Part shown: positions 1 to 58,293 of the stretch, in pieces
Layout of the letters: the number at the start of each line of letters is the position of its first letter
How positions within the stretch are numbered: position 1 is the stretch's first letter
NCBI RefSeq assembly: GCF_034190915.1
Contig: NW_026947484.1
Coordinates: 137,118,982 to 137,182,981 of the forward strand
Direction of reading: 5' to 3'
Length of the DNA: 64,000 nucleotides
Source of the DNA: Cavia porcellus
Taxonomy: Eukaryota; Chordata; Mammalia; Rodentia; Caviidae
Notes under the pieces: model-generated
The model's input: the letters and a program-made list of their open reading frames with translations, nothing else
The model's database searches: none
Told to the model about the DNA's origin: nothing
Position numbers and translations under genes: made by a program

Positions 1-651
1 TGAATAGGACAGCAAAATTATCTTGTGTGATGCCATAATAATGGTGGATACATGCCATTATACGTTTTTCAGGACCCACAGAGCATACAACACCACGAGT
101 GAACCTTACTGTAGACAATGGACTTTGACTGAGTGACATTCAGTGTAGGTCTTCAGTGATAACGAACGCACCACTCTGATAAGCAAGGATCGCAGTGCAG
201 GAGCTCGTGCATGTGCAGTGCAGGGGCTGGACGGAAGAAAGTCTGTTAGAAAAACATGCTGACTAATTTTCTACCGTTCTATTTCACTTTTGTTGTGATT
301 CTTTTATTACAGTACGATGTCTTGCTTTGTTCTTCAGTAGCCTCTCCTGTCTTCACTGCATTTTCCATCCAGCTGATTCCAAGAAACCGTCTTGCAGATA
401 GTCCAGTAGCAACGCTCCATCCTCTGCTGGGTTCCGTCAGCAAAACCCTTTACCTGAAAAACTAGGTAATTGCTCTCCTACCTCAGTATTCAGTGGTTTT
501 ATAGACAATATTTCTAGAGAAACCTCACCAAGCTGGCCCATGAACTTTGGTGTCATGACCACAAGCCAAAGGGGAACGCTCAGTTCTGCCCTGCACACTG
601 ACTGTTCCCCAGTCTCTGAAGGTGAGTAGCCCATATCTTCTTCCTTTCTTT
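1..651. other. Unassigned flank
   Basis: No gene or repeat family recognised. The short open frames here have no similarity I know and look like chance. The right end, 632-645, is one half of the probable target-site duplication of the next element. Confidence 0.4.
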
Positions 652-1638
652 CTTTTTTTTTTTTTTTTTTGCGGGGTGGGCGGTGTTTAAAGATAATAAA
701 ACCAAGCAAAATAAAACAGATTAGGGCTGGGGAGTTAGCTCAACAGCACAAGCACCTTCCTGGCAAGTGCGAGGTTGTGAGTTCAATCCCTGGTATCCCC
801 CCCCAAAGATAAAACAGAATATAGCCAATCAAAACAAACCAGTGTAAGTAACACAGGCCTTCAAAACAAGATAATAGGACAACGGTTACCATAATGTCTC
901 TTGTTGTCTTCAAAATAGCTGCCCATAACTTCAGACATAGTAAAAATCAAACAAAACAGAACAGAATAGAACCAATAAAAACAAAACAATGAATGCAGTA
1001 AAGGACTTAAAACAAGACAATAGTAAATCCAAAATGGCTACCATAATATATCTTGTTATCTTTGAAATAGCTGCCCATGCCACTGGATATAATAAAATCA
1101 AGCAAGACAGAACAGAATAAAACCCAAGCCAACAAAACAATGAAAATGGTACAGGGCTTCAAAATAAGATAATAGGGAATTAACAATGGCCACCACCTTC
1201 AGAAAAAGATCCCCCTTAGACATTACATTGCATATTGTTATCTTCTGAATAGATGATCAGACTACTGGCTTTAGACTTACAAACCTAGTGAAACACTTAA
1301 CACTACAAGTATTTAGTTGTATTTTATCTCAATAGCTACCATTGCAGCCTGTGTTTCTCCAGATCAGCCAGTCAGGGCGGCAGCCAGGAGTGGGGGCCCT
1401 TGCCTCTTCTTGTCTCCCAGCCCATGTGCCAGAAGGGGCTGGCATCTGGATATCTCCTTACCAGCCTGCACATGGCACAACTCACAGGGAGGGCTTGTTT
1501 CTTGTTGACTTCCTGTTCTCCACACATTCGGCAATGGTACCAACTCACGGGAAATGGCTGGCACCTGGCCATCCTCTCAGCGGCCCATGCATGGAGGGCT
1601 TGCTTCTTGTTAACTTCTTGTTCTCCTCCCTTACAGTT
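646..1638 (-). mobile_element. V-family composite non-autonomous retroelement, copy V1
   Basis: Read on the minus strand, the element starts with GC-richer tandem units of about 119 bp (ctggcatctgg at 1439, ctggcacctgg at 1558; each unit also carries a cttgttgacttcctgttctc-like block). It continues into AT-rich repeats of about 152 bp (starts near 842, 995 and 1147) and ends in a T-run on the plus strand (652-671), the complement of a poly-A tail. The AT-rich unit matches the 3' region of the HAL1 copies at 24.7 and 32.1 kb. A 14-bp direct repeat with two mismatches (catatcttcttcct at 632, cataccttcttgct at 1639) brackets it. It has no credible ORF. Mobilisation by L1 machinery is inferred. 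An ID element is inserted at 724-806. Confidence 0.65.
724..806 (+). mobile_element. ID SINE inside V1
   Basis: tRNA-Ala-derived SINE with a recognisable A-box-like start (gggctggggagttagctc) and B-box region (gaggttgtgagttcaatccc). It is flanked by a repeat of ataaaacaga on both sides, which suits a target-site duplication. It is therefore younger than V1. Confidence 0.85.
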
Positions 1639-4022: not shown

Positions 4023-4500
4023 GACAGAAAGTCATCGATGTTACGAAACTTTCATCTGCCTGCTTATGGTGCAAAAAGATGATTTGTTCTTTTCACGTGA
4101 TCAACCTGTCCATGAATATCCTTACCAGTCTTCAGACATCAGCACTGCAAAAGGCAGGGATAGAATTGTATTTCTTAGTCCTGCAGGCACCTAAGGGGTA
4201 TAACTAAAGCTTTCATTTATTTGAGGGAACAGAATGAGATAGCACCACCATCCATCATTGTTATTGCTGTTTGTCTCAGCATCCAGAATGTCCTGTCCTG
4301 AGACTGTGGGATGTAATGTACCCATTCATAATGCAACAGGACAGAAAACCATGTGGCTTCCACAGTTGCCTCGATTTGTGCCCCAGTACAGTGATACTGT
4401 GATACACATTCTGAAGCCTCCTCATCGACCTGTGGCGAGGTTCTCAGTAGAACTGTCAGGACAGGAATTCTGGAGCACAGAATGAATGATATGGTAAGTA
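4023..4500. other. Unassigned spacer
   Basis: Contains a 75-codon open frame (4258-4485) with no recognisable similarity, no Kozak or splice context and no conserved motif. I treat it as chance. Confidence 0.4.
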
Positions 4501-13577: not shown

Positions 13578-15482
13578 AGATTTATACTTTAACTTTATTT
13601 TTAAATTTTTTTATTTTAAAGAGAATAAAACAAAAGAGAACAGAACAAAGCAAATCAGAACACAACAATGCAAGCAACACAGCACTTCACAACCAGACAA
13701 TCAGACATGAACAGTAGCAACCATAATGTCTCTTTTCTTCTAAGGGATTTGAGCATACCTTCACACACATTAATATCAAACATAACAAAATATTATAAAA
13801 CCATTCAAGAAAATGAAAAGATTGCAAGACTTCAAAACCAAATAACAGAAAATGAACAATGGTTATTATAATATCTCATTTTCCTCAAAAAAAGTTGTCC
13901 ATACCATCACACATAATAAAATCAAATAAACCACAACAGGATAGAACCAATCAAAACAGAAGAACAAAAGCATGTTATGACTTCAAAACAAGATGATAGC
14001 AAATCAGCAATGGCTACCATAATGTCGTTTTCTTCAAAATAGCTATTTGTATCATCGCACGTAATAAAATCAAACAAAACAGAAAAAAACTATTTTGCTT
14101 TTGGGTCCCATTAACTCCTTCTGTCTCTTATGCTAGGGTTCACGAGTATGAATTCGAACTGTTTTCGGCCATGAACATGATCTCCAGTTGTATCCATTCA
14201 CCTACAGGAGCCTTGAGGTTACTCTACTTTACAGCTGGGTAGCTTTCCACTGCATGAAAGTATCATATCTTTCTTATGCATTCTGTGGTTGATGGACAAG
14301 TTACTCTTGCTTTTTTTTTTTTGTCTCCTTTTACATGAAACAATAGTTTTCTCCTTTGATTTTCAGTCTATGAATTTACTTTCCAGTTAAATGTTTCTTG
14401 TATACAGTGTATCTACAGATCTTGTTTCTTGATCCACTCTCCCTGTTTCTTTTTATTTTTGAATTGAGGCCATCTACATTAATGGTTACAACCAGCATAC
14501 ATTGATTTGTCTCTGCCCTGCTACCCTCCTGCGGTTGGCCCTCCACTTTCCCCCTTTATTCCACTGCCTGTCTTGTTTGGTGATCCTCTATTGCTGCTGT
14601 TCCTGGAACCATGGTCATATTTATCTCTCTAGAATATCCTTTAGCACTCTCTGTAGGGTTGGTTTATTAGTCATGAATTCCTTCGGTTGTTCTTTATCAT
14701 GGAAGTATCTTGCTTTTCCATCAGTTAAGAAAGACAGTTTTTCAGGGTACATCAATCTGGGTTGGTGGTTGTTTTCTTTCAGGACTTGAAACACTTCACT
14801 CCAAACTCTTCTGGACTTAATAGAGTTTGTGTTGACCTATGCAGCTACACTGTAGCTTCCTTTTTCTTCCATGACTGTATCTCCTAGCCTTATTCTATGT
14901 GGGCTAGAGGTCTGAGTTTGCCTTTTGCTCCTTGGTCTTGAGGTTCTCCTGAGTTCTTCCCAACCAGCTGGTTGTGGGGCCCCAGGCACTTTCCCACATT
15001 GGCTACCCCTAGGCAGTATAGGGGGATGGGACAGGCACCTGGCTTCCTCTAATTCCAGATTTACAGGGAGACAGCAGGACATGGAGCAGGCTTCTCCAGA
15101 CCTATGCAGCTACACTGTGGCTTCACTGATGACCAGGGGTGCGTGGAATGTGGGGCTGCTTCTCAGCCTCTGTATTTACACTGGGACTCCCACAATGAAA
15201 GCAGACACACAGGAGTGTATTTGTCTGATTCTGCTAGTGAGTGATGGCTGCCTGCGGAGCCAAGGGCCTCCAATGGTGGCCTACGGATGCACAGAGCTTA
15301 CCCTCTGTGTGTCCCTGCTCCTGCTGGCTGACTGCAAGAAGGAGCCTTCTGGTGGCAGCTCCCTCAGGGTAAAGGTGGATCCATTGGTTCTCTCTGCCCA
15401 TGCTGGCTGCCTGCAGGATGTGGCATTCCCGTGGTAGCAGCAGCAGCTCTCCTGGTTCTCTCGGCCTGCACTGGGCACCTGG
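13578..15482 (-). mobile_element. Half-LINE (L1/HAL1-type) element, copy C
   Basis: A 1.9 kb minus-strand insertion into an antisense L1. In its own 5'-to-3' sense it has a GC-richer 5' region (15482 to about 14830) and the C-terminal part of ORF1 (about 14825-14620; its antisense frame parallels that of copy B, e.g. SGYINLGWWLFSFR). A short piece of ORF2 endonuclease start follows (about 14600-14390), then unassigned sequence, then AT-rich repeats of the HAL1/V 3' type (14090-13600). The RT domain is absent. Imperfect flanking repeats ggagcttctttt (13562) and ggagctttcttta (15483) look like the target-site duplication, and the host L1 reads on correctly across them. ORF1 N-terminus is missing. 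Confidence 0.6.
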
Positions 15483-21186: not shown

Positions 21187-22030
21187 CCCGCTCCCCCTCC
21201 TTTGAGTGCTACTCCAGCAGCACTGTGCTCACTCTGAGCTCCTTGTGCCTGCTAAGCTGGCGTGGCCACCGTCTCCCTTCAGCCACCATCACAATTATCT
21301 ATCGGGACCTCATCATCCACGTTGAGTAGATATTCTCCCACATTCACAAGATCCAGGAGCTCGTGGAAGGTGGAGGCCAAGACGGTCAGTAGAACAGAGG
21401 GTAACACTGGTGACTTGCTCATTGGTGGAAATGCTTCCCCTGAAGACCCAGAGTGTGAAGGCACACAAGCACTGTAGTCACTGGTGCTCATACTGTCATG
21501 AGCCATCACTTGCAGGAAGCCAGCTTCACAGAAGAGGCCCACAAGAAATGCCTCGAAGATTATATGAAATCAATCAAAGGCAAATTTGAACAAAGACCAA
21601 AAAGAGTAAAACTGTTTGCGACAGGGGCTGCAGAACAAATCAGGCACATCCTTGTTAATTTCAAAAACTATCAGTGCTCTACTGGTACAAGCATGAATCC
21701 AGATGGCATGGTTGTTCTCCCGGACTACCATGAGGATGGTGTGACCTCATTTATAATTCTCTTTAAGGATGATTTAGAAGTGGAAAAATGTTAATGGATT
21801 TGGTGGTTACCTTGGGTCTTTCACTTGTCATAACCGCTGCTTGTCATCCACACAACACCAGAATTTTAAACAAACGCAACTGATGTCATTTTGAATGCAT
21901 CACTTATTTTGACATGATTTATTTGAAGTGGAGGCATTGTTTTTTAGGGAAAAAACACATGTCATGTAGGTTGTCTAAAAATACAGTGCATTTAAACTCA
22001 TCTGAGAGAATGCCTCTTAGTTTAATACAT
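21187..22030 (+). pseudogene. TPT1: TPT1 (TCTP) processed pseudogene
   Basis: An intronless copy of the translationally controlled tumour protein mRNA: part of the 5' UTR (ending 'cgtctcccttcagccacc'), the coding region (21291-21794) and the 3' UTR ('gcttgtcatccacacaacac', 'atgtcatgtaggttgtctaa', 'tgcatttaaactcatctgag'). Translation follows TCTP in order: IIYRDLI, a frame-disrupted segment, [87 protein letters not shown] and a terminal EVEKC. The initiator ATG is now ACA (21291-21293), an in-frame TAG follows shortly (about 21327), and reading frames shift at least twice. It is dead. The tail end is not marked by poly-A, so the 3' limit is approximate and could extend past 22030. Confidence 0.92.
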
Positions 22031-24665: not shown

Positions 24666-24680
24666 AGAAAGTTCTTTCCT

Positions 24681-27453
24681 GGGGGAAGAGCAAAGATGGT
24701 GGATAGATAACAGTAGGCTACAGAGGCTCTCTGAGATAGTCAACTTAGAATTCAACATAATACAGTGTGAGGAGCCCCGAACAGAGGGAGATGAATTTGC
24801 TCATCCCAAGAAGAAACTAAGGTGAGAAGAACCAATCAAACATACAGTCCCAGTGCTATTAATAAAACAGCTAAAGGTTCAGTGCTCCCACCACAGCGGG
24901 CAACTTGTCGAGCTGTCCAAGGTCCCCGCTTCAACTCATTGGAGGTGGAGTCACACTGAGGTCAGGGGCCGGCCAGCTGAACGGAGAGCTGAGCTGGTGG
25001 GGAGCCTGCATCAACCTGTAGTAAGTGATAGGAGTGAAGCCATTCCACAGAAAAGGGGGCTCCAGTGAACGACATTCTAGGACCAGGCAGGACTGGCAAG
25101 TACAAGAGGCAGCAGTGATTTCAGCCAGTTGTTCCCTTCCTGAATAGGATTGGTAGAGTGAGCTAGGCCTGGGTCATATAATGTGGCTGAGACCAAATAG
25201 GTTATCCAAAATCAATTCCCTAGGGCAGTGGAGCACACTCATGCAGTGAAGCCTCATAGTTTGACTCACCCGGAGGGGAGGCAACACATAGTAATACAGT
25301 GCAGGCCTCAGCTTGAGTGATCCGGAGGGAGGGGCCAGCATACGCTGCCGCTGTCTGCAACTCACTAGCACACTGCAGTGGGAAGAGTCACCTAGCCAGC
25401 GTGCTACAGAAGAATTGTAACCAACAAAGAAAGAAACCAGGGACTCCTGGAAGAAACAAAAAAGATGGGAAGAGGAAACAATAAGAAAAAGTGCCGAGGT
25501 CCCAACCTTGAGAACATTGATCCAGGACAGGCAAATACAAAGAAGAAGGAGAACAGCAAACATGCAATATCAGACACAGCACCAGTGGACATAAAGAGAT
25601 ATCTTCAGGACCTCATGGATGAGTTCAAAAGGGAAATATTTAGCCAAGTAAAACAAGATATAAGAAGATTAATAAAAGAGATGCTAAGTACCCCTCAAGC
25701 AGACACAGACAGAAAGGAGGAACTCAAAGGAGAGAACCACTTGATGAAGAATATAAAGAAAAATATAGAATATATGAAGCAGATTCAAAGAGATTACCAG
25801 GAAATTAAAAACTATGGAAAGATGGCAAATCTGCCTGAAAGAAACTAAGGATAGATTATCAAAACTGGAGGACAGTTTTGCAATGTGTGATTATGAAAGG
25901 AAAGAGAAGATTGGTTATAATCTCTAATGCAGATGGCCTTGATACACTAAATTAAAAAGAACCACACATGGAGTATATCAGGAGGCAGGGTCCACCGAGA
26001 TGCTATTTATAGGAAATATAATTAACATGAAAAAGAGTACAAGGACTGAAAATCAAATATGAGAAAGCAATGCCCTAGGTGACAGAAGACCAGAGAGTAA
26101 TAGGGGCAACTAGACCAGTATTTGTGGAAAGGTTGCAAAGACAGTCTTTAATAGGAAAAGGAACACAATTAGAGATCAAGTCCAGGAGAGAGAAGGTTCG
26201 GAACCACTTAGGTAAGTAGCAGATTGCCCCCCCCCCAATTTAAAACCAAGGGTCTTGGTCAGACCCAAAAATGCACAGTGTACCCTGAGGAAGTGAAAGG
26301 GGAGGAGAGTCTTAAAAAAGATGGCAGAAGATATTGTTAATAGTGTATCAGGATTTAAAACCCACATTACTCACACCACTCTGCTTAGATAGATTTTATT
26401 CTTTTTTTTGATAGATTTTATTCTGTCCCAGTTTGTCTACTTGCATTAGATTTGAGGACACAGACAGCTATCCCAAAAACATCAGGATATAGCACAATAA
26501 TCATCTTTAATTTCCTATTATCTTAATCTGGAGCTCTGTATGATTTATACTGTTATATCATGACTGATCTTAGTAAAATCTTATTTGTTTGATTGCTGTT
26601 TGGCATCAACAGATTTTATTCAAAACCAATATGATTGATAGTATCAAGTCTGAGAGTATAGCCAACTACACTGAAGATGACAAGACTCTATGATACACAT
26701 TCTTGTTTGATAACTGCCTGTTTTTGAAGTTTTATACTATATACAAAGTTGTGTTTTTATTAATACTGTTATGTACTGATATATTCAATTATACTATGTC
26801 TGATGATATAGCCAATTCTATTGAAGATAACAAGAGACAACACAGGAATTATGGTAAACTCCTTGTACAATGGTCTTATATTGTCTTTTTCATTTCATGT
26901 GTTTATAGGAATATGTTTTGTTTTGCCTTGCTTTATTTTGTTTCTCCCTCTAATATAGAAATACATGTTAAGTCTCATGCATCTGTATAACCTACAAACA
27001 GTTCATGAGAACTGATCTTATGACACATGATGAAATGAATAGATACTATGAAGAAAAAGAGACACTAACATACCCAGTGTGGATCCTGGAGTGTCATAAT
27101 GTGACACCCAGCAATAGTATTATTCTTTGTTCAGAGTGATATTAGCCTGCTTGGGTTGTTCAGTCTCAACATACTTGAAGATATGGATAACTGCATGTAT
27201 GTTTAAGTGTATAGGATTGACAACCATATTACAAAGTTTTTGTTGGATAGCTAAACAGAACTGTTTGCAGTCTCACTGTCTGAATTCCCACTTTATGTGT
27301 TCCACTTTTGTATCTTGAACAACTATTTGTAAACGGGCAGTACGTAAACATTAACTAGTAATTTCTTACTGTTTATTTTTTCTCTGAATATTTGCATTAT
27401 TTCTACCCATTTTCTGTTTTGTTTAGTCTTTCTTTAAATAAAATTTTAAAAAA
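24681..27453 (+). mobile_element. HAL1-type half-LINE, copy A, with perfect target-site duplication
   Basis: A 2773-bp insertion between two identical 15-bp repeats, agaaagttctttcct, at 24666-24680 and 27454-27468. In order: a 5' UTR (24681-25460), the N-terminal half of ORF1 (from 25465), and a short ORF2 endonuclease-like remnant near 25915-26060. An unassigned section follows, then an AT-rich 3' region whose repeat period is 150 bp (gtctgagagtatagccaac at 26648, gtctgatgatatagccaat at 26798). It ends in an ataaaattttaaaaaaag tail. No RT domain is present. Copy B shares the 5' UTR, ORF1 and 3' repeats. HAL1 elements (ORF1-only L1 derivatives) are established in mammals; this copy fits that class but also keeps an ORF2 scrap, so it may be a separate deletion derivative. 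Transposition would need L1 ORF2 protein in trans. Confidence 0.85.
25465..25905 (+). pseudogene. LINE ORF1 N-terminal half (copy A)
   Basis: The open frame 25465-25848 encodes 127 residues: a basic, low-complexity N-terminus (MGRGNNKKK), then DLMDEFKREIFSQVKQDIRR and the start of the coiled coil. After a frame slip near 25780-25840 the coiled coil continues as ETKDRLSKLED in another frame. The RNA-binding RRM and C-terminal domains found in copy B are absent, replaced by ORF2-like sequence at about 25915. ORF1p normally trimerises through its coiled coil and coats LINE RNA; this truncated product lacks RNA-binding domains. Confidence 0.8.
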
Positions 27454-27769
27454 AGAAAGTTCTTTCCTATGTCTATACTTTTGAAAATCTTATCAATTTT
27501 ATCTTCTAGTAGATAAAAGTGTTTCTGTTTTATTTTCTATGTCTGTGATCTGTTTTTATTTTATTTTGATTTATGGTGATTAGCATGGGTCTAGATTCAA
27601 TCTTCGGTATGTGTGTAACCAGTTTTCTCAGCACTAGTTGTTAAAGAGACTACTACTTTTCATCCAGTATGTTTTCAGTCCCCTTGTTAAAGGTCAGGTA
27701 GCTTGATATGCCTGGGGTTATTTCTTCATCTTCTATTCTGTTCCATTGATATTCACATCTATTTTTTTG

Positions 27770-28660
27770 AATTTCTGAATTTTTATTTTAAAGAGAATAA
27801 AACCAAGCACAATAAAACAGAATAAAGCCAATAAAAACAAACCAGTGTAAGTGACGCAGAATTTGAAAACAATAGGATATCAGCAATGTTTACCATAATG
27901 CCTCTTGTTGTCTTCAAAATAGCTGCCCATAACTTCAGACATAGTAAAAATCAAACAAAACAGATTAGAACCAATAAAAACAAAACAATGAATGCAATAA
28001 AGGACCCAAAATAAGGTAATAGTAAATCCAAAATAAGATAATAGTAAATCCAAAATATACCATAATATATGTTGTTATCTTTGAAATAGCTGCCTATGCA
28101 ATCAAATATAATAATATCAAACAAAAAACCCCAACCTAACAAAACAATGAAAATGATACAGAACTTCAAAACAAGATGTTAAAGAATTAATAATGGCTAC
28201 CCCCTTCAGAAGGAGATCCTCCATAGATGCTACACTGCACACTGTTATCCTCTGAATAGATGATCAGATCACTGGCTTAGACCTGCAAAGTCAGTGAGGC
28301 ACTTATCACCACAAGCATCAAATGTGTATTTTACCTCAACAGCCATCTTTGCAGCTTGTGTTTCTCCAGACCAGCTGGTCACTTATGGTGGGGGGTGGAG
28401 GTATTTGGCTCCTCTTGTTTCCCAGCCCATGCTTTGGAAGAGGCTGGCATCTGGCTGTCCCTGCCTCATGGCCCATGCATGGCCCTGATTTGCAGGGGGC
28501 TTGCTTCTTGTTGGCTTCTTGTTCTCTTCCCCCACAGTCTGTGAATGGCACCAACTCACAGGAAAAGCCTGGCATCTGGCTGGCCCCAAAGTGGTCCACA
28601 CATTGTGCTGATTTACAGAGAGGGCTTTCATGTTGGTGACTTCTTGTTGTCTTCCCCTAC
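27770..28660 (-). mobile_element. V-family composite retroelement, copy V2
   Basis: A second antisense copy. Its own 5' part holds VNTR units of 125 bp (ctggcatctggctg at 28444 and 28569). Its own 3' part holds AT-rich repeats including complement of 'ctatgtctgaagttatgggc'. Flanking repeats cacatctatttttttg (27754-27769) and cacatgtctatttttttg (28661-28678) differ by a 2-bp indel and fit a target-site duplication. The host L1 reads straight across. A tandem microduplication (aatagtaaatccaaaata) lies at 28017-28057. No ORF. Confidence 0.75.
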
Positions 28661-28734
28661 CACATGTCTATTTTTTTGGACCAGTACTATGCTGCTATAT
28701 GCTGATAGTTTATTTATTTATTCATTTAATTTGT

Positions 28735-28870: not shown

Positions 28871-29125
28871 AACTAACATGAAATCATGCCTCCTGCCTTC
28901 CTTCTGTTGCCCAGGCTTGCTTTTGTTACTGTGGCTTTTTTCTGGTTCCATGTAAATCTTAAAATTGGTTTCTGTAGTTTCATGAGAAATGCTACTGTTA
29001 TTTTGATTGAGATAATCTTAAATCTATATATCAGTTTTGGTAATATGGCCATTATGACAATATCAGTTCTGCCTATCCAAGAATAAGGAATACCGTCCTT
29101 TTTGATCTTTTTCCAGAGTACTGAG

Positions 29126-29485
29126 CTTTCCTTACAGCGATCTCTTTTCTGTTCCATTGGTGTATGTATCATTTTTCTATGCCAATATTGTGCTGGTTTG
29201 TTTACTAGAGTCCTATAGCACGTCATGAGCTCAAATATTATGATGCTTCCAACTTGTTCTTTTCAGTCAAAATTGCTTTATTCAAGATCTATTGTAGGGG
29301 CTGGGGATTTAACTCAGTGGCATAAGTACCTGCCTTGCAAGAACGCAGTTGTGAGTTCGACCCCGGGGTACTGATTTTTTAAAAATGGTCTATTGAGGTT
29401 AAACATAGATTGTAGGCTCTTTTTAAAATTTTTTCCTATTTCTTTGAAGAGTTGGGAAAATTTTGCTCTTTTTACATAATCCTGT
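29126..29485 (-). mobile_element. Second antisense L1 ORF2 fragment abutting the first
   Basis: After the ORF2 C-terminal blocks of the preceding copy, the text restarts with 'ttctgttccattggtgtatg', which lies further 3' in L1 order. So this is a separate L1 piece. A minus-strand frame (28873-29226) runs through the junction by chance and joins the two pieces. Confidence 0.7.
29297..29373 (+). mobile_element. ID SINE
   Basis: A well-preserved copy: 'ggggctggggatttaactca' and 'gttgtgagttcgaccccggg'. CpGs are retained, so it is young. Confidence 0.92.
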
Positions 29486-32148: not shown

Positions 32149-34242
32149 ATGGGCGAATAGATAACAACTGGCTACAGAGGTTCCCTGAGATAGTCAACTT
32201 AGAATTCAACATAATACAGAGTGGGGAGCCCCAAATAGAGGGAGATGGATTCTCTTGTCCCAAGAAGAAATTGCCGACCATCTCAGGTCCCACCGTGACT
32301 TGCCAAGCCTTCCGAGTTCCCACCGCTTCAACTCACTGGAGGTGCAGCTACATTGAGTTCGAAGATCAGCGAGCGGAACGGAGAGCTGAGTTGGCAGGGT
32401 GCCTGCATCAACCTCTGGTGAGTGACGGGAGTGGAGCCATTCCATTAATAGGGGAGCTCTGGTGGATGACATTCTGGGTCCAGGCAGGACTGGCAAGTAC
32501 CAGGGGCAGCAGTGATGTTAGTCAATTGTTCCCTTCCCAAACAGGATTGGTGGAGTGAGCTAGGCCCGGGTCACGTGACCTGGCTGAGACCCCAATAGGT
32601 TATCCGAGGTCAAGTCCCTATAGCGGTGGTGCACATTAACCACACTAATTCAGTGAAGTCACAGACGTTTGACTGATCTGGAGGGGAGGCAGCGCAAAGT
32701 AATACAGTGCAGGTCACAGCAGCTTGACTGATCCAGAGGGGAAGGGGACAGCATACTCTGTCCCTGTCTGCAACACACTAGCACAAGGCAGTGGGAAGGG
32801 TCATCTAGCCAGTGTGCTTCAGAAGAATTGTAACCAACAAAGAAAGAAGTTGGGGCCTCCTGGAAGAAGCAAAAAAGACGGGAAGAGGAAGCAACAACAA
32901 AAAGTCCCCAGGTCCCAATCCTAAGAACCTAGGACAGGTAAATACAAAGGAGAATGAGAACAGCAAACATGCAATATCAAACACAGCACCAGTGGACATA
33001 AAGAGATATATTTGGGACCTCATAGATGAGTTCAAAAGTGAAATATTTAGCCAAATAAAGGAAGATATAAGAAGATTAGTAAAAGAGATACTAAGCACCC
33101 CTCAAGCAGACACAGACAAAAGAAGGGTGGAACTCAAAGGAGAGAACCACTTGATGAAGAATATAAAGAAAATATAGAATATATGAAGTAGATTCAGAGA
33201 TCACCAGGAAATTAAAAACTATGGAAAGATGGCAAATCTGCTTGAAAGAAACTAAGGACAGATTATCAAAACTGGAGGACAATTTTGCAATGTGGGAGTC
33301 TGAAAGGAAAATGTTTTTAAAAATAACAAAGGAACAAGCAGTAACAATACAAAGACTAGAAGATGACAAGAGGATCTATAACTTGAGAATCAAGAATGTG
33401 AATGAAGAAGCAGAAGTCTAAACAAAGGTTATTTACAGAAATAATTAAGGAAAACTTCCCAAACATAGGAAAAGGAAATGATATTCTGATATGAGGCATA
33501 CAGAACTCCAGCCACCTACAACCAAAACAGAGCTACACCCAGGCATATAATAATCAAGATCCCAGAAATTCAATATAAGAACAGAATATTAAAAGCTGTT
33601 AAAGACAAAAAAAAAAAACCCAGATAACCTATAAAGGAAGGCCCATCAGAATAACAACAGTCTTCTTGACACAAACCATCAAGTCAAGAAGAGCTTGGAG
33701 TGAAATTTTCCAATCCCTGAAAGAAAATAACCTCCAACCCAGATTGATATACCCTGATAAACTGTGTCTAGAAATTAATGGAGAAACAAAATGCTTCCAA
33801 GACAAAGAAGAACTTGGGAAATTTACAACCACCAATCCAACTCTACAGAGAATACTGCAGGGCATTCTAGAGAGAGAGAAAAGTACTAGGATTCCAGGAA
33901 CAGTGGCAGAGAGGCTTCAATGAATGGAGCAGAAAACAGAATGAAGAAGATAAACAGACAACTGATGGCAAAAAAAAGAGCATAACTGAAATGAGGCAGA
34001 GAAGATTTTATTCAAAACTGATATGATTGATAGTATCAAGTCTGAGAGTATAGGCAACAACACTGAACATGACAAGATTCTACGATACACATTCTGGTGT
34101 GATAACTGCCAGTTTTTGAAGTTCTATACTATATACAAAGTTGTGTTTTTATTAATACTGTTATGTACTGATACATTCAATTATACTATGTCTGATGATA
34201 TAGCCAATTCTATTGGAGATAACAAGAGACAACACAGGGAGT
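32149..34242 (+). mobile_element. HAL1-type half-LINE, copy B
   Basis: Homologous to copy A from about 24703 onward but slightly 5'-truncated. The 5' UTR is 32149-32877, ORF1 32878-33923, then without any ORF2 the 3' AT-rich repeats start at 34009 ('gattttattcaaaactgata', 'gtctgagagtataggcaac'). The element breaks at 34242 after the block 'aacaagagacaacacaggg', about 600 bp before the 3' end seen in copy A, and KRAB sequence follows immediately. ORF1 followed directly by 3' UTR is the defining layout of HAL1. No target-site duplication could be found, partly because the right boundary is unclear. Confidence 0.85.
32878..33923 (+). pseudogene. HAL1 ORF1 (near full length, frameshifted)
   Basis: About 348 codons, the usual ORF1p size. 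Start ATG of copy A is ACG here (32878-32880). N-terminal and coiled-coil blocks (DLIDEFKSEIFSQIKEDIRR; then ETKDRLSKLEDNFAMWESER at 33221-33421) lie in two frames. The middle (33440-33600) carries the RRM-region text ENFPNIGKGND and the conserved TPRHIIIKIPE-type block, broken by stops. The C-terminal domain is intact at 33666-33920 (SRRAWSEIFQSLKENNLQPR, then LIYPDKLCLEING). ORF1p binds LINE RNA as a trimer and acts as a nucleic-acid chaperone. At least two frameshifts and several stops make it inactive. Confidence 0.88.
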
Positions 34243-34735
34243 GCTGACAGCCTGGAGCTGAGCACACTTCTAGTTTCTGTGACTTCTTCCTAGTGATCCT
34301 AGGACACCTTCAAGCAGTCAATGGAGAGAGTGACCTTTGAGGATGTAGCTGTGAAGTTCACCCCAGAAGAGTGAGATTTGCTGATGCCATCCCAAAAGAA
34401 GCTCTACAGAGATATGATGTGGGAAACACATATGAATATTATTGTGACAGGAAGAATATGGCATAATCAGCAAATTAAAGAAGAGGACAAAAATTGCTCA
34501 AGAAATCTAAGATATGATGAAGACAATTATTTGAGAATTGAAGAGCATCAATATAAAATAATGAAGACATAAAGACCTGCAGTGATTTCCAGTCCTTTCA
34601 GAAGCATGAAACAAGGAAGAGGAGAGAAAGAACCTGTCATTATGAGCAATGTGGAGAAGACAGCTCTGATCTTAGTGAACAAACTCACCCTGGGAAGAAA
34701 ACCCTTGTAGAGATTCCAGGAATGGTGTGATGTGG
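34243..34735 (+). pseudogene. Intronless KRAB zinc-finger gene pseudogene (N-terminal part)
   Basis: A 5' UTR (34243-34320) leads into ATG at 34321. The frame reads ERVTFEDVAVKFTPEE, a stop (TGA at 34372-34374 where the conserved KRAB-A tryptophan is expected), then DLLMPSQKKLYRDMMWETHM. It continues, still in frame, into the post-KRAB linker (GRIWHNQQIKEEDKN). KRAB-A and linker are normally on separate exons, so the lack of an intron indicates a retrocopy. A later frame shift precedes a TCHYEQCGED-like and HPGKK-like segment, after which similarity ends before any C2H2 zinc finger. KRAB domains recruit TRIM28 for silencing; this one cannot be made. The parent gene is not identifiable. Confidence 0.82.
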
Positions 34736-42548: not shown

Positions 42549-43834
42549 ATAATTGTACTATTGATCTTGTAGTTCAGGGAAAGAAACTGTGATTGCTCAT
42601 ATTGTTTGATCTGTTTTGCATTCCCTATCTTGTAATCTGAGCAAGTATTTTGAAGACAAAAATATGCAATATGGTGACTATTGTTAATTTCTTATCCGTT
42701 TGTTTTGAAATCCTATATCATTTCTATTGTTTTGTTTTATTTTAATCTCTGTAAAAGAAAAAAGAGAAATGAGAGCAATATATTTTTTTCTTACTTAGGA
42801 AATGCAGTTCTGATCATTTCTGGAAAAGCACATCATAAATTGTGAAGTACCATCTAAATTTAAGTGCATGTACATATACTAGTCCATCCGCAAGGGGTAC
42901 TACAAAAACAGAAGCAAATGAAAAGCCCTGGAGGCTGGTGTTTAAGCAAGGCAGACTTCGCTTTTGCCAGTCTTTTGACCCCTTTCTGTAGCCCTTCTCA
43001 CTTCAGGCTCCTCCTGTCCTCTGCCTTGAATGGCGATGGTTCTTCCTGTGGCACCGCCGAAGGCTGGCCAGTGTCCCTGGTGCACTCTGTTATGTAGCCT
43101 GTGGAAGTAAAAGTTCCACAGCAGCTGTTTATAACAGAGAGTTTTATGTCTCATTTTTAGGCTAGCAAAGTGAGTATGAAGCTGTATGGTATTTTCTGTT
43201 GCTATCCAGAATTTTCTATTAGATTACTTACAGTAAGTCATGAATTTTCATCAAGCAACATTGGAAAATAAATGAGACACTTTTGATTCTCCAAGGGGAA
43301 AATTTGAGTCATATAGTTGAAGCGACTAATACTAAACAATAAATTCTACAAAAGCAAAATCCTCTTTGGGGACTGGAAATATACATCTACATACTTGTGT
43401 CAAGTGGCAGAATCCAAAAAGTCACGTCATGACTGCTTGACAAGCGCAAGGCCCTGAGTTTGAACGCTGATACCAAAACTAAACAAAAGTCATGTCACAT
43501 ACATTTCCCTGAAACACACATGCAAGGACAGCAATATAATTGTGTTAGTGTATGGTTAAATATTAATAAGAGCACTAGACTATAACTCTGTATTTTGTTT
43601 TAAATATACAAGTTAAGTTATCTCTTTCATAATTAGTTATTTTATAATAGTTTTAGCTATAAGTAAATTTGGAAACCCCTTTACCTTGTCTCCATTTTCT
43701 TAGCCATAGGTTGGGAATAGTTATCATATATATCTGATAGAATAAAGAGAAATACAAGTATTTGTGTAAAAGTACATTATGCCTGGGCCAAAGCAGATAT
43801 TAAATGTTACTGTCTATTGAATATAAGTAGTTTT
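42549..43834. other. Mostly unassigned, one ID remnant
   Basis: No gene. An ID remnant lies at about 43428-43482 ('ggccctgagtttgaacgctg'). Open frames at 42864-43097 and 42942-43154 overlap each other antisense and show no domain. Confidence 0.4.
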
Positions 43835-45769: not shown

Positions 45770-47335
45770 AACAGATTTTTGCATATAGTTTAAAATTCTT
45801 TTATGCACACACCAACATATGTGACCCAGATGTTGACTGTCCATCTCATCATTTTGGCTAACTCTCTTTTGGGCCCATACCATGCTTGACACAATAGTCA
45901 GCCCCTTAACCAGCATTGACAAGAAACCTTATATCATACTAAATGTGTCCTGACCAGCGTCTCCTGAGATCCATGCCATATTGGAACTTAGGACACTGGA
46001 AAACCAAGCAAGCAGCTTGCCTCCCTGGTAAGCGGCTGTGGTGTGGCAGGCTGTGGCCACCCCAGGGAGAGAACCACCAGTGTCTCCTGAGATCCACGCC
46101 ATGTTGAAACTTAAGATGCTGGGAAATCAAGCAAGCAGCTCACCTCTCTGATAAGCGGCTGTGGTGTGGCAGGCTGCGACCCCTCCAGGGGGAGAACCAT
46201 GAGTGTCTCCTGAGATCCGTGCCATGTTGGAACTTAGGATGCTGGGAGCCTGCCTCCCTGTTAAGCAATAGTGAATGTACCAGTGCATGGGTTTAGAGTC
46301 AAACATACCGCTTCCCCTGCTCCCCCCTTTAGCAAATGGGAACCAGAGATCTGAGCATCTCTTGGGAGGTTGACTATATGCAATATAGCAAATAAGGAGG
46401 ATTTCCTTCTACCATATTTTTGAAGGCAAATATTTTTACTACTGTTTCACTTTATTCTTATTAATGGTACTGTTCTATTCAATATTCTGTTTTGATAAGT
46501 TCTATAATGTTCTGTACTTCATTTTATTTTGCTATATGTGATTGAAAGAACAACTATTGTGATGATAATGAGGTATACTGTGATACCTATTACTGTTATC
46601 CCGGTAATCTGCTGTGAAGCTCTGTACGAATTTCACTATATTGTAACAAAACAAAACAAAACTAAATGTGTCCTGATTTTTAACTTATCAGCAAACAGCG
46701 AAGGGGCTAGAAAGAAGGTTCACATTGGATATCATCAGCATCTCTCCCAACAAAACAAAATGGTGTTGACTATGTCCCTCTATGATGTGGCCAGCCACAT
46801 CACAAACTGTGCATGTTTTCCATGGCCTCTGTTTACCCCTTTAGTTTCAGTCATGATTTTTAAAAGCATATTCTATATTTCCATTGCAACTCCCATCCTT
46901 TTCCAACAAGTTGTAAGGATGGTCTATATTTTATCTCATCAGTCCTTTTTTGGTGGACATTAAAGTCCTCTCTTTCTCTCTCTCTTGCTCTTTTTTGCTG
47001 TGTTAAACCATGTCATAATTACACATTGTACACTAGACAGGTTGTTGGGAAAATTCTTAGAAATGTAAAGTCTGGATCAAACACATACGCCTTCACAATT
47101 TGGATATGTTATGACAAGTTGCTCTGTAGGAAATGTCATGAATGTACATTCCCACAGAGCATAGAAACTGCATAAATTTTCTTTACATTTTTGCCAGCAT
47201 TGGATATTACTAACTTTATCATCTCTACCAAGCTAGTGGTGAAAGGTAGTGCCCTAATATTATTTTGATTTACATTTCTTTAATGGTAAATGCCAGTAAG
47301 CACCTTTTAATCAATATATTTGCCATTCATATTTG
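45770..47335 (-). mobile_element. Antisense L1M 3' UTR, split by V3
   Basis: 47040-47335 matches old L1M 3' UTRs in complement ('gtctggatcaaacacatacg', 'tgacaagttgctctgtagga', 'attttgatttacatttcttt'). The left part, 45770-45937, is less certain. V3 is inserted at 45954-46660. Confidence 0.55.
45954..46660 (+). mobile_element. V-family composite retroelement, copy V3, with perfect 16-bp target-site duplication
   Basis: A 707-bp insertion between identical repeats actaaatgtgtcctga (45938-45953 and 46661-46676). The 5' part is about 2.5 tandem units with periods of 123 and 122 bp (gtctcctgagatcc at 45959, 46082, 46204), GC-richer than the surroundings. A linker ('gatctgagcatctcttggga', 'ggatttccttctacca') follows. 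The 3' part is AT-rich with the HAL1-type repeat ('tattcaatattctgttttga', 'ctatatgtgattgaaagaac'), ending in acaaaacaaaacaaa. It has no ORF of its own; the frame 46529-46963 crosses the 3' boundary and is chance. This copy defines the V unit most cleanly. Confidence 0.9.
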
Positions 47336-49285: not shown

Positions 49286-49843
49286 TGGTGGGCAGCCATG
49301 GCTTAGCAGGTGGCAGCCACCCCAGGGGGAGAACCACTCAGTGTCTCCCAAGATCCACTCCATGTTGAAACTTAGGGCACTGGGAAACCAAGCAACTAGC
49401 TCGCCTCCCTGGTAAGCAGCCATGAGCCTACTGGCATGCAGGCTGAGAATGAAACATCCCATTTGCCACCCCCCCCCATTAGCAAATGGGAGCCAGAGGT
49501 CTGAGCATCTCTTGGGAGGTTGACCATATGCAATATAGCAAATAAGGGGGATTTCCTTCTACCATCTCTTTAAAGGCAAATATTGTTCTCACTCTTTTGC
49601 TTTGTTCTGTTTTTGTATTGCACTATTGTATTACTCTATTCAATATTCCGTTTTGATAAGTTCTATAATGTTCTGTATTTGGTTTGATTTTGCTATACCT
49701 GATTGAAAGAACAACTATTTGAAGATAACGAGATATACTATGGTAACTATTACTATTATCCCCATAACCTGCTGTGATGCTCTGTACCAATTTCACTGCA
49801 CTGTCTCAATTGGCTATGTTCTGTTGTATTTCACTACCTTCAA

Positions 49844-49873
<30 letters not shown>
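49286..49873 (+). mobile_element. V-family composite retroelement, copy V4
   Basis: A 588-bp copy with only about 1.5 VNTR units (gtctcccaagatccactcca at 49343), the same linker ('gtctgagcatctcttgggag', 'ggatttccttctaccat') and 3' AT-rich repeat ('tattcaatattccgttttga'). It ends in an (AAT)n tail at 49844-49873. Flanking 10-mers aaaagcgctc (49276-49285) and aaaagtgctc (49874-49883) differ only by a CpG-type transition. It sits just downstream of the L2 3' end. Confidence 0.82.
49844..49873 (+). repeat. (AAT)n tail of V4
   Basis: About ten AAT units forming the 3' tail of the retroelement; likely length-variable. Confidence 0.95.
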
Positions 49874-57530: not shown

Positions 57531-58095
57531 AAGGAAAGGAAAGAAACAATGTTCTAGGCTCATGGTTTTTTTTTTCCTGACCCCAGCCCTCCAATAATTC
57601 CACTTTTCCCAAGGAAAGTATAATTCCTTGAAGTGTAGATGTGCTGGGATCTAAGATCTGAGCACTTGGTGTACTCAGTTCTCATTGCTTTGTCGAGGTT
57701 CTTCTAGGTTCTTTCACTAGATGGAGCTAGAAAACACTTGTGTATATATACACATACACAGACATCTTTTTTCATCTCTACATCTATTGATCTCTATTTC
57801 TATGTATCTACCTATATATATCTCATGATTTATACTAGTAACTTTCAATGCAACACCACAGGATTATTTTGGTTTCTGTCTTTTAAATTTGTAACTCCCT
57901 TCCCCAGTAGTGAGAAATTTAGCTTCTATCTCAATCTACTTTCATGTAGCCAGACTTCTAATCCCATGGTCTGGGCCTTCCTTAAGTCAGCTTCCTCTCA
58001 ACTGGCTACTGATCCATTCAGGCTTTTTGATGAATAAAGAAAGGGAGACAAGACATATTTTTTAAAGACAGGAAGAGCAGGAAAGGAATGGAAGT
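57531..58095. other. Unassigned spacer
   Basis: Nothing recognised apart from short TA/CA tracts at 57740-57765. Confidence 0.4.
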
Positions 58096-58293
58096 AAAGA
58101 GAAGGGAAAGAAGGAGGAAAGGAAGGGAAGGGAAGGGAAGGGAAGGGAAGGGAAGGGAGGGGAGGGGAGGGGGAGGGAAGGGAAGGGAAGAGAAAGAAGG
58201 GGAGGAGAGGGGAGGGGAAGGGAGGGGAGGGGGGAAGAGAGAGGAAGGGAGGGGAGGGGAGGGGAGGGGAGGGGAGGGGAGGGAAGGGAAAAG
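58096..58293 (+). repeat. 198-bp uninterrupted purine tract
   Basis: Mixed (GGGAA)n and (GGGGA)n units with no pyrimidine on the plus strand across the whole interval. Many GGG/GGGG runs make G-quadruplex and triplex formation plausible. Open frames over it on both strands are low-complexity artefacts. Confidence 0.97.

Follow-up and report, generated by a model that had tools for sequence, protein, structure and literature searches.

At positions 45954-46660 of a 64,000-nucleotide stretch of Cavia porcellus DNA (the window), a preliminary description had placed a 707-bp composite retroelement with a VNTR in front and a borrowed 3' end, laid out on an SVA/LAVA-like plan. The locus raises the question of whether this segment is a mobile element in its own right, and from where its parts derive. 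The segment is flanked by a perfect 16-bp direct repeat, ACTAAATGTGTCCTGA (Table 1). The target-site duplication that had been read there stood up to a chance control: among 5,000 pairs of positions drawn at random from the window, with the same spacing and 35-base flanks, the longest exact match was of 15 bases and occurred once. The A-rich tail of the copy, AACAAAACAAAACAAA, overlaps the duplication by AC, so that the target-site duplication may be 14-16 bp long.

The internal layout also agreed with what had been described. Tandem Repeats Finder reported an array at 45953-46247 with a period of 123, 2.4 copies and 86% matches, compatible with the tandem units of 122-123 bp claimed for the 5' end, and a profile traced a partial third unit to 46284. 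The GC content was 0.49-0.62 in the first four 100-base steps of the segment and 0.24-0.35 in the last three, the GC-richer 5' part being followed by an AT-rich 3' part and the A-rich tail. The longest stop-to-stop frame within the segment has 93 aa (46127-46408, minus strand), and a 151-aa frame (46508-46963, plus strand) starts inside the copy and runs past its end; the statement that there is no ORF was therefore fair. Rfam gave no match in the window at gathering scores, and none in 45900-46700 at E values up to 5.

Table 1. Parts of the copy at 45954-46660 and related elements in the window.
Feature	Position	Strand	Basis or remark
Target-site duplication, left copy, 16 bp	45938..45953	+	exact repeat
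GC-rich VNTR of 123-bp units, two complete and a third partial	45954..46284	+	Tandem Repeats Finder, profile
Unique core, approximate borders; 29-nt count motif at 46331-46359	46285..46440	+	
AT-rich 3' part, approximate border; best L1-type AT unit match 46521-46644	46441..46644	+	
A-rich tail of CAAAA repeats, attached ~50 nt short of the 3' end usual in the family	46645..46660	+	
Target-site duplication, right copy, 16 bp	46661..46676	+	exact repeat
Copy B, same family: partial and one VNTR unit, core, AT part, (AAT)n tail	49286..49873	+	
Copy C, older sister family	643..1638	-	weak 11-bp flanking repeat, 1 mismatch
E: AT-rich L1-type units behind a piece matching the L1 ORF1 of H2	13600..14090	-	
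H1, HAL1-like: 5' UTR, part of ORF1, AT-rich 3' array, A tail	24681..27453	+	
Copy D, older sister family: two own-type VNTR units, core, AT units	27770..28666	-	
H2, HAL1-like: L1 ORF1 dsRBD domain, then AT units	32150..34238	+	Pfam

We have then searched the genome (3.145 Gb) for further copies. A 29-nt motif of the core is present at 4,418 places when as many as 3 mismatches are allowed, and its reversed control at none. The whole element as query gave 6,006 places, which are first-look candidates and not individually verified; of the best 40 scored, 30 were retained, with 83-89% identity (own copy excepted). The VNTR by itself gave 4,090 first-look candidates, and again 30 of the best 40 scored were retained. 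The segment at 45954-46660 is one copy of a dispersed family with thousands of copies in the genome.

The order of the parts is common to these copies. Independent ends at the junction between VNTR and AT-rich part were not seen: the core lies behind the VNTR in all 30 VNTR-selected loci (the 45954-46660 copy included), and the AT part is present in 28 of them, the loci without an AT match being L047 and L051. The two sets of 30 amount to 60 loci, 53 of them distinct, and these 53 carry 2-9 VNTR units, partial ones included, mostly spaced at 120-125 bp; the unit consensus has 63% GC. Since the loci were mostly the best-scoring ones, long copies are favoured in this sample. Twelve further loci were selected by the core, being the first on contig C1 of the motif list with the loci of the whole-element search left out; in all 12, the core is preceded by one VNTR unit or more, if only a partial one (1-3 units). 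Locus L080 contains, at 53-1018, five VNTR units, followed by two in inverted orientation, one further unit and the core, and is a rearranged or nested copy.

Satellite or segmental duplication as the main cause of this abundance was rejected, as flanks and duplications differ between copies. Near-identical flanks were found in two pairs of the 53 loci (L016/L019 and L053/L054), and L059 and L030 have a diverged flank piece in common. Pattern scans for the family motifs in bacterial and archaeal genomes and in viral contigs returned 0 matches, as expected for host DNA.

Insertion marks were examined in 65 loci, namely the 53 distinct and the 12 core-selected ones. Flanking repeats with a score of at least 12 were present in 24/65 loci, versus 2/387 mismatched flank pairs; at a score of at least 10 the counts were 33/65 and 11/387, with about 2 of the 33 expected by chance. 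The duplications measure ~10-18 bp, accompany A-rich tails and differ in sequence from locus to locus. The other 32 loci are without a duplication of score 10 or more, which may be due to age. In 28 of the 33 duplications the first base is A, a position at which A-rich tails partly favour A. L1 endonuclease sites have the form TT/AAAA, and duplications starting with A would be as expected of them. Altogether, the A-rich tail, duplications within 7-20 bp at A-rich sites and 5' truncation found here are those of a non-LTR retroposon. LTR retroelements produce short duplications of 4-6 bp; hence, a solo LTR or other LTR retroelement was ruled out by the ~10-18 bp duplications and the A-rich tails.

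On inspection, the 33 duplication-bearing copies start inside a VNTR unit (L004 being doubtful). Ten of them start in a 4-nt window at unit phases 93-96, and a window as full as 10 arose in 1 of 20,000 random-phase sets. The remaining ones, including the copy at 45954-46660, start elsewhere, as 5' truncation would give. The commonest start being at one phase inside a unit, the unit probably carries a promoter and start site. The mouse L1 5' UTR contains tandem monomers with internal starts. The clustering of starts at one phase resembles that arrangement and would also fit an internally deleted L1 or HAL1, an element that would have lost its ORFs and whose VNTR would correspond to the monomer array in the 5' UTR of an L1 subfamily. 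The likeness to mouse monomer arrays covers both the tandem 5' units and the starts inside a unit; unlike them, the units were never directly before ORF1 in the loci examined.

At the other end, the family usually stops at about CTACCTTCAAAATAATAAA, followed by an A-rich tail. Earlier 3' ends were seen in the 45954-46660 copy, L009 and L011, and less so in L004 and L075. Three loci (L001, L009 and L011) end well early with A-rich tails of their own, suggestive of an alternative 3' end. The 5' end of the 45954-46660 copy lies ~28-31 nt inside the commonest 5' start of the family, and its match to the consensus stops at position 456, most copies reaching 506. Thus, the 707-bp segment stands as a bounded retrocopy, but not as the full unit, being short by ~28-31 nt at the 5' end and by ~50 nt at the 3' end.

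To which element the 3' part belongs was addressed with the L1s of the genome. An ORF2-like frame of the window, used as query, gave 50,903 candidates, of which the best 150 were scored. One of these, L072, is an L1 flanked by a 15-bp duplication, with open ORF1 (356 aa) and ORF2 (1,291 aa) frames and domains for ORF1 RNA binding, endonuclease and RT; this L1 (L072, 1418-8087) is inserted within ORF1 of a HAL1-like element. Its 3' UTR contains an array of an AT-rich unit (best 57 bits; dinucleotide shuffles at most 5.0). The same unit was found in 5/5 further L1 3' ends, picked by long open frames among the 150 scored matches, with best scores of 53-61 bits (at most 5.5 in shuffles that keep single-base content only), and so in 6/6 L1 3' ends with ORF2. 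Three fuller HAL1-like elements have the AT module behind ORF1, without room for ORF2.

The AT profile built from the family itself recognised these ends as well. Its best scores were 12.7-29.9 bits on the five L1 3' ends and 18.5 on L072 (shuffles at most 6.3), and 9.0-15.1 bits on five HAL1-like 3' parts (dinucleotide shuffles at most 5.1); the strength of the match between L1 and family is moderate in bits. A similarity by mere AT content was rejected with the dinucleotide shuffles. The AT units common to the six L1 3' ends and the HAL1-like elements indicate that the 3' part derives from the 3' UTR of this genome's own, resident L1, the source of the 3' end described as borrowed.

An L1-derived 3' end is also what a deleted L1 or HAL1 would retain. 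Against this reading, the VNTR-selected loci run into the core and none directly into ORF1, in 30/30 loci of the family and 12/12 of an older family described below. Nearby ORF1 pieces occur in 3 of the 30 (L041, L043 and L059), lying upstream of the VNTR or past the AT part, in flanking HAL1-like sequence. VNTR and core were not found in one full L1 (L072) and three HAL1-like elements (L061-L063): the VNTR profiles gave at most 0.7 bits on their 5' UTRs, that of L072 being the sole L1 5' UTR, and earlier VNTR profiles had no match in the same four loci. The core profile reached at most 5.6 bits on L1 and HAL1-like sequence, versus 23-31 on two loci of the older family. We therefore consider an internally deleted L1 or HAL1 improbable.

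Five further relatives or L1-type elements of the window bear on the 3' module, together with copy B of the family itself (Table 1). Copy B is 77% identical to the 45954-46660 copy over the matched VNTR, core and AT part, and is flanked by a weak 10-bp repeat with 1 mismatch. The core is present in copies C and D as well, which carry their own GC-rich tandem units, and the AT-rich part is common to C, D and E. Copy D has a 12-bp exact but T-rich flanking repeat and adjoins an L1 ORF2-like frame; copy C carries a SINE-like insert at ~722-795. Further L1-like sequence in E was read by eye. An AT-unit profile built from C, D and E only matched the 45954-46660 copy with 24 bits, copy B with 50 bits and H1 and H2 with 19.5-37.5 bits and more weakly, the best score in 20 shuffled windows being 8 bits. 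A further L1-type AT unit fragment (42 bits) lies outside the described copies, at 42638-42742 (plus strand).

H1 is bounded by perfect 15-bp duplications (24666-24680 and 27454-27468), and its 5' half gave 9,317 first-look candidates genome-wide, of which the best 40 were scored. Neither H1 nor H2 contains ORF2. The ORF1 N-terminal frames of both gave no Pfam domain, and neither did the frame at 28876-29262, which resembles L1 ORF2 solely by matching other L1 frames. A match to the ORF1 of H1 and H2 was sought in 45954-46660, and none was found. Elsewhere in the window, sequence behind H2 (~34260-34700) resembles, by eye, a copy of a KRAB zinc-finger transcript; a TCTP (TPT1) frame at 21462-21794 (plus strand; Pfam PF00838, E 4.5e-30) is probably a processed pseudogene; and a GGAAG tandem repeat with period 5 and 42.8 copies occupies 58080-58290. 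B1-like and ID-like SINE features would fit a rodent host.

Copies C and D belong to an older sister family with the same plan. With D as query, 9,194 candidates were obtained; of the best 40 scored, 8 were retained, with 76-80% identity to D. Its VNTR by itself gave 2,353 candidates (best 40 scored). For 12 of the first 15, D and two loci of the D query being left out, 601 downstream bases were taken: all 12 contained the sister family's core together with some or all of its AT part, and none contained ORF1. The unit consensuses of the two families aligned with a score of 66; 500 single-base shuffles averaged 28.6 (sd 8.6), and none reached that score. Cross-matches between the two VNTR profiles were at most 7.2 bits. 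By the alignment, homology between the two types of VNTR unit is probable. The plan has thus persisted through at least two waves.

Regarding age, the 53 loci diverge from the consensus by a median of 6.7% with CpG sites excluded, and the 45954-46660 copy by 9.6%. Plain alignment gives medians of 8.8% for these loci and 10.0% for the 12 core-selected ones. Identity to the consensus was 89-94% in the 40 best matches. As none of these 40 exceeds 94%, the family looks inactive now, and currently active copies among them are unlikely.

The lack of a long ORF, the A-rich tail and the duplications would also fit a processed retrocopy, in this case one of a non-coding host gene whose transcript contains a tandem repeat and was copied many times, the AT similarity to L1 then being due to chance. 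Speaking against such an origin, which we regard as highly implausible, are the thousands of copies, a second, older family built in the same way, and scores of the AT match to L1 far beyond those of dinucleotide shuffles. The evidence argues strongly for a non-autonomous, non-coding composite retrotransposon with a 5' VNTR, a core and an L1-derived 3' end, probably copied in trans by L1. In this composite, the 123-bp GC-rich unit in tandem would form the 5' end, a unique core of roughly 150 bp would follow, and the 3' end would come from the 3' UTR of the genome's own L1 and be followed by the A-rich tail. The L1 reverse transcriptase would act on the transcript in trans, by target-primed reverse transcription. 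We infer that transcription would begin in the VNTR, that L1 would mobilise the element and that the 3' UTR common to both may play a role. The preliminary description was borne out in its check of genome copies, which have the VNTR-core-AT order in common, with differing flanking duplications and variable VNTR number, and its SVA/LAVA-like plan, with the VNTR in front and an L1-derived 3' end, was supported.

The element works like SVA and LAVA but is not a member of either. As in the SVA of hominids, a GC-rich VNTR with variable unit number precedes a 3' part from another retroelement in a non-coding unit, with an A-rich tail, long duplications and L1-type insertion. Unlike SVA, it has no CT-hexamer or Alu-like 5' region (by inspection of starts), its 3' part comes from L1 instead of HERV-K, and its 5' end is formed by the VNTR, within which the starts lie. 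Hominoid VNTR units measure 30-50 bp. That of SVA is given as 35-50 bp in a passage of PMC5753468, versus 123 bp here. The gibbon LAVA, PVA and FVA elements are likewise VNTR composites with varied 3' ends, the L of LAVA being LINE-1. According to a passage of PMC4432496, they have a CT/Alu-like region and the hominoid VNTR in common; neither was seen in our element, whose L1 piece, unlike that of LAVA, comes from the 3' UTR of the resident L1. HAL1 (half-L1) has the AT-rich L1-type 3' module in common with it and likewise shows insertion of the L1 type. HAL1 encodes ORF1p, as a passage of PMC5753468 states, whereas our element has VNTR and core in place of ORF1 and no internal frame above 93 aa. 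A truncated or deleted L1 would have the L1 5' UTR or ORFs ahead of its 3' UTR; in our element this place is taken by VNTR and core, which were not found in L061-L063 or L072. The resemblance to ape SVA seems to have arisen separately.

VNTR composites are stated to be specific to hominoid primates in PMC4432496 and PMC7353768, and the available part of a 2026 study of L1 chimeras (PMC13174262) names SVA and no other VNTR composite. Among the matches listed from a partial, open-licence literature, no VNTR composite outside hominoids was present. The chances seem about even that these are independent, undescribed VNTR composites outside hominoids, comprising at least two successive families that join a self-promoting GC-rich unit to the 3' UTR of the resident L1 in thousands of copies. 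With the VNTR as the 5' end and L1's own 3' UTR as the 3' end, the contribution of the VNTR can be told apart from that of a matching 3' end. The genome also offers natural swaps, one 3' module occurring in L1, in HAL1-like elements and in two composite families. A separately built composite would let comparison ask what makes a good L1 passenger.
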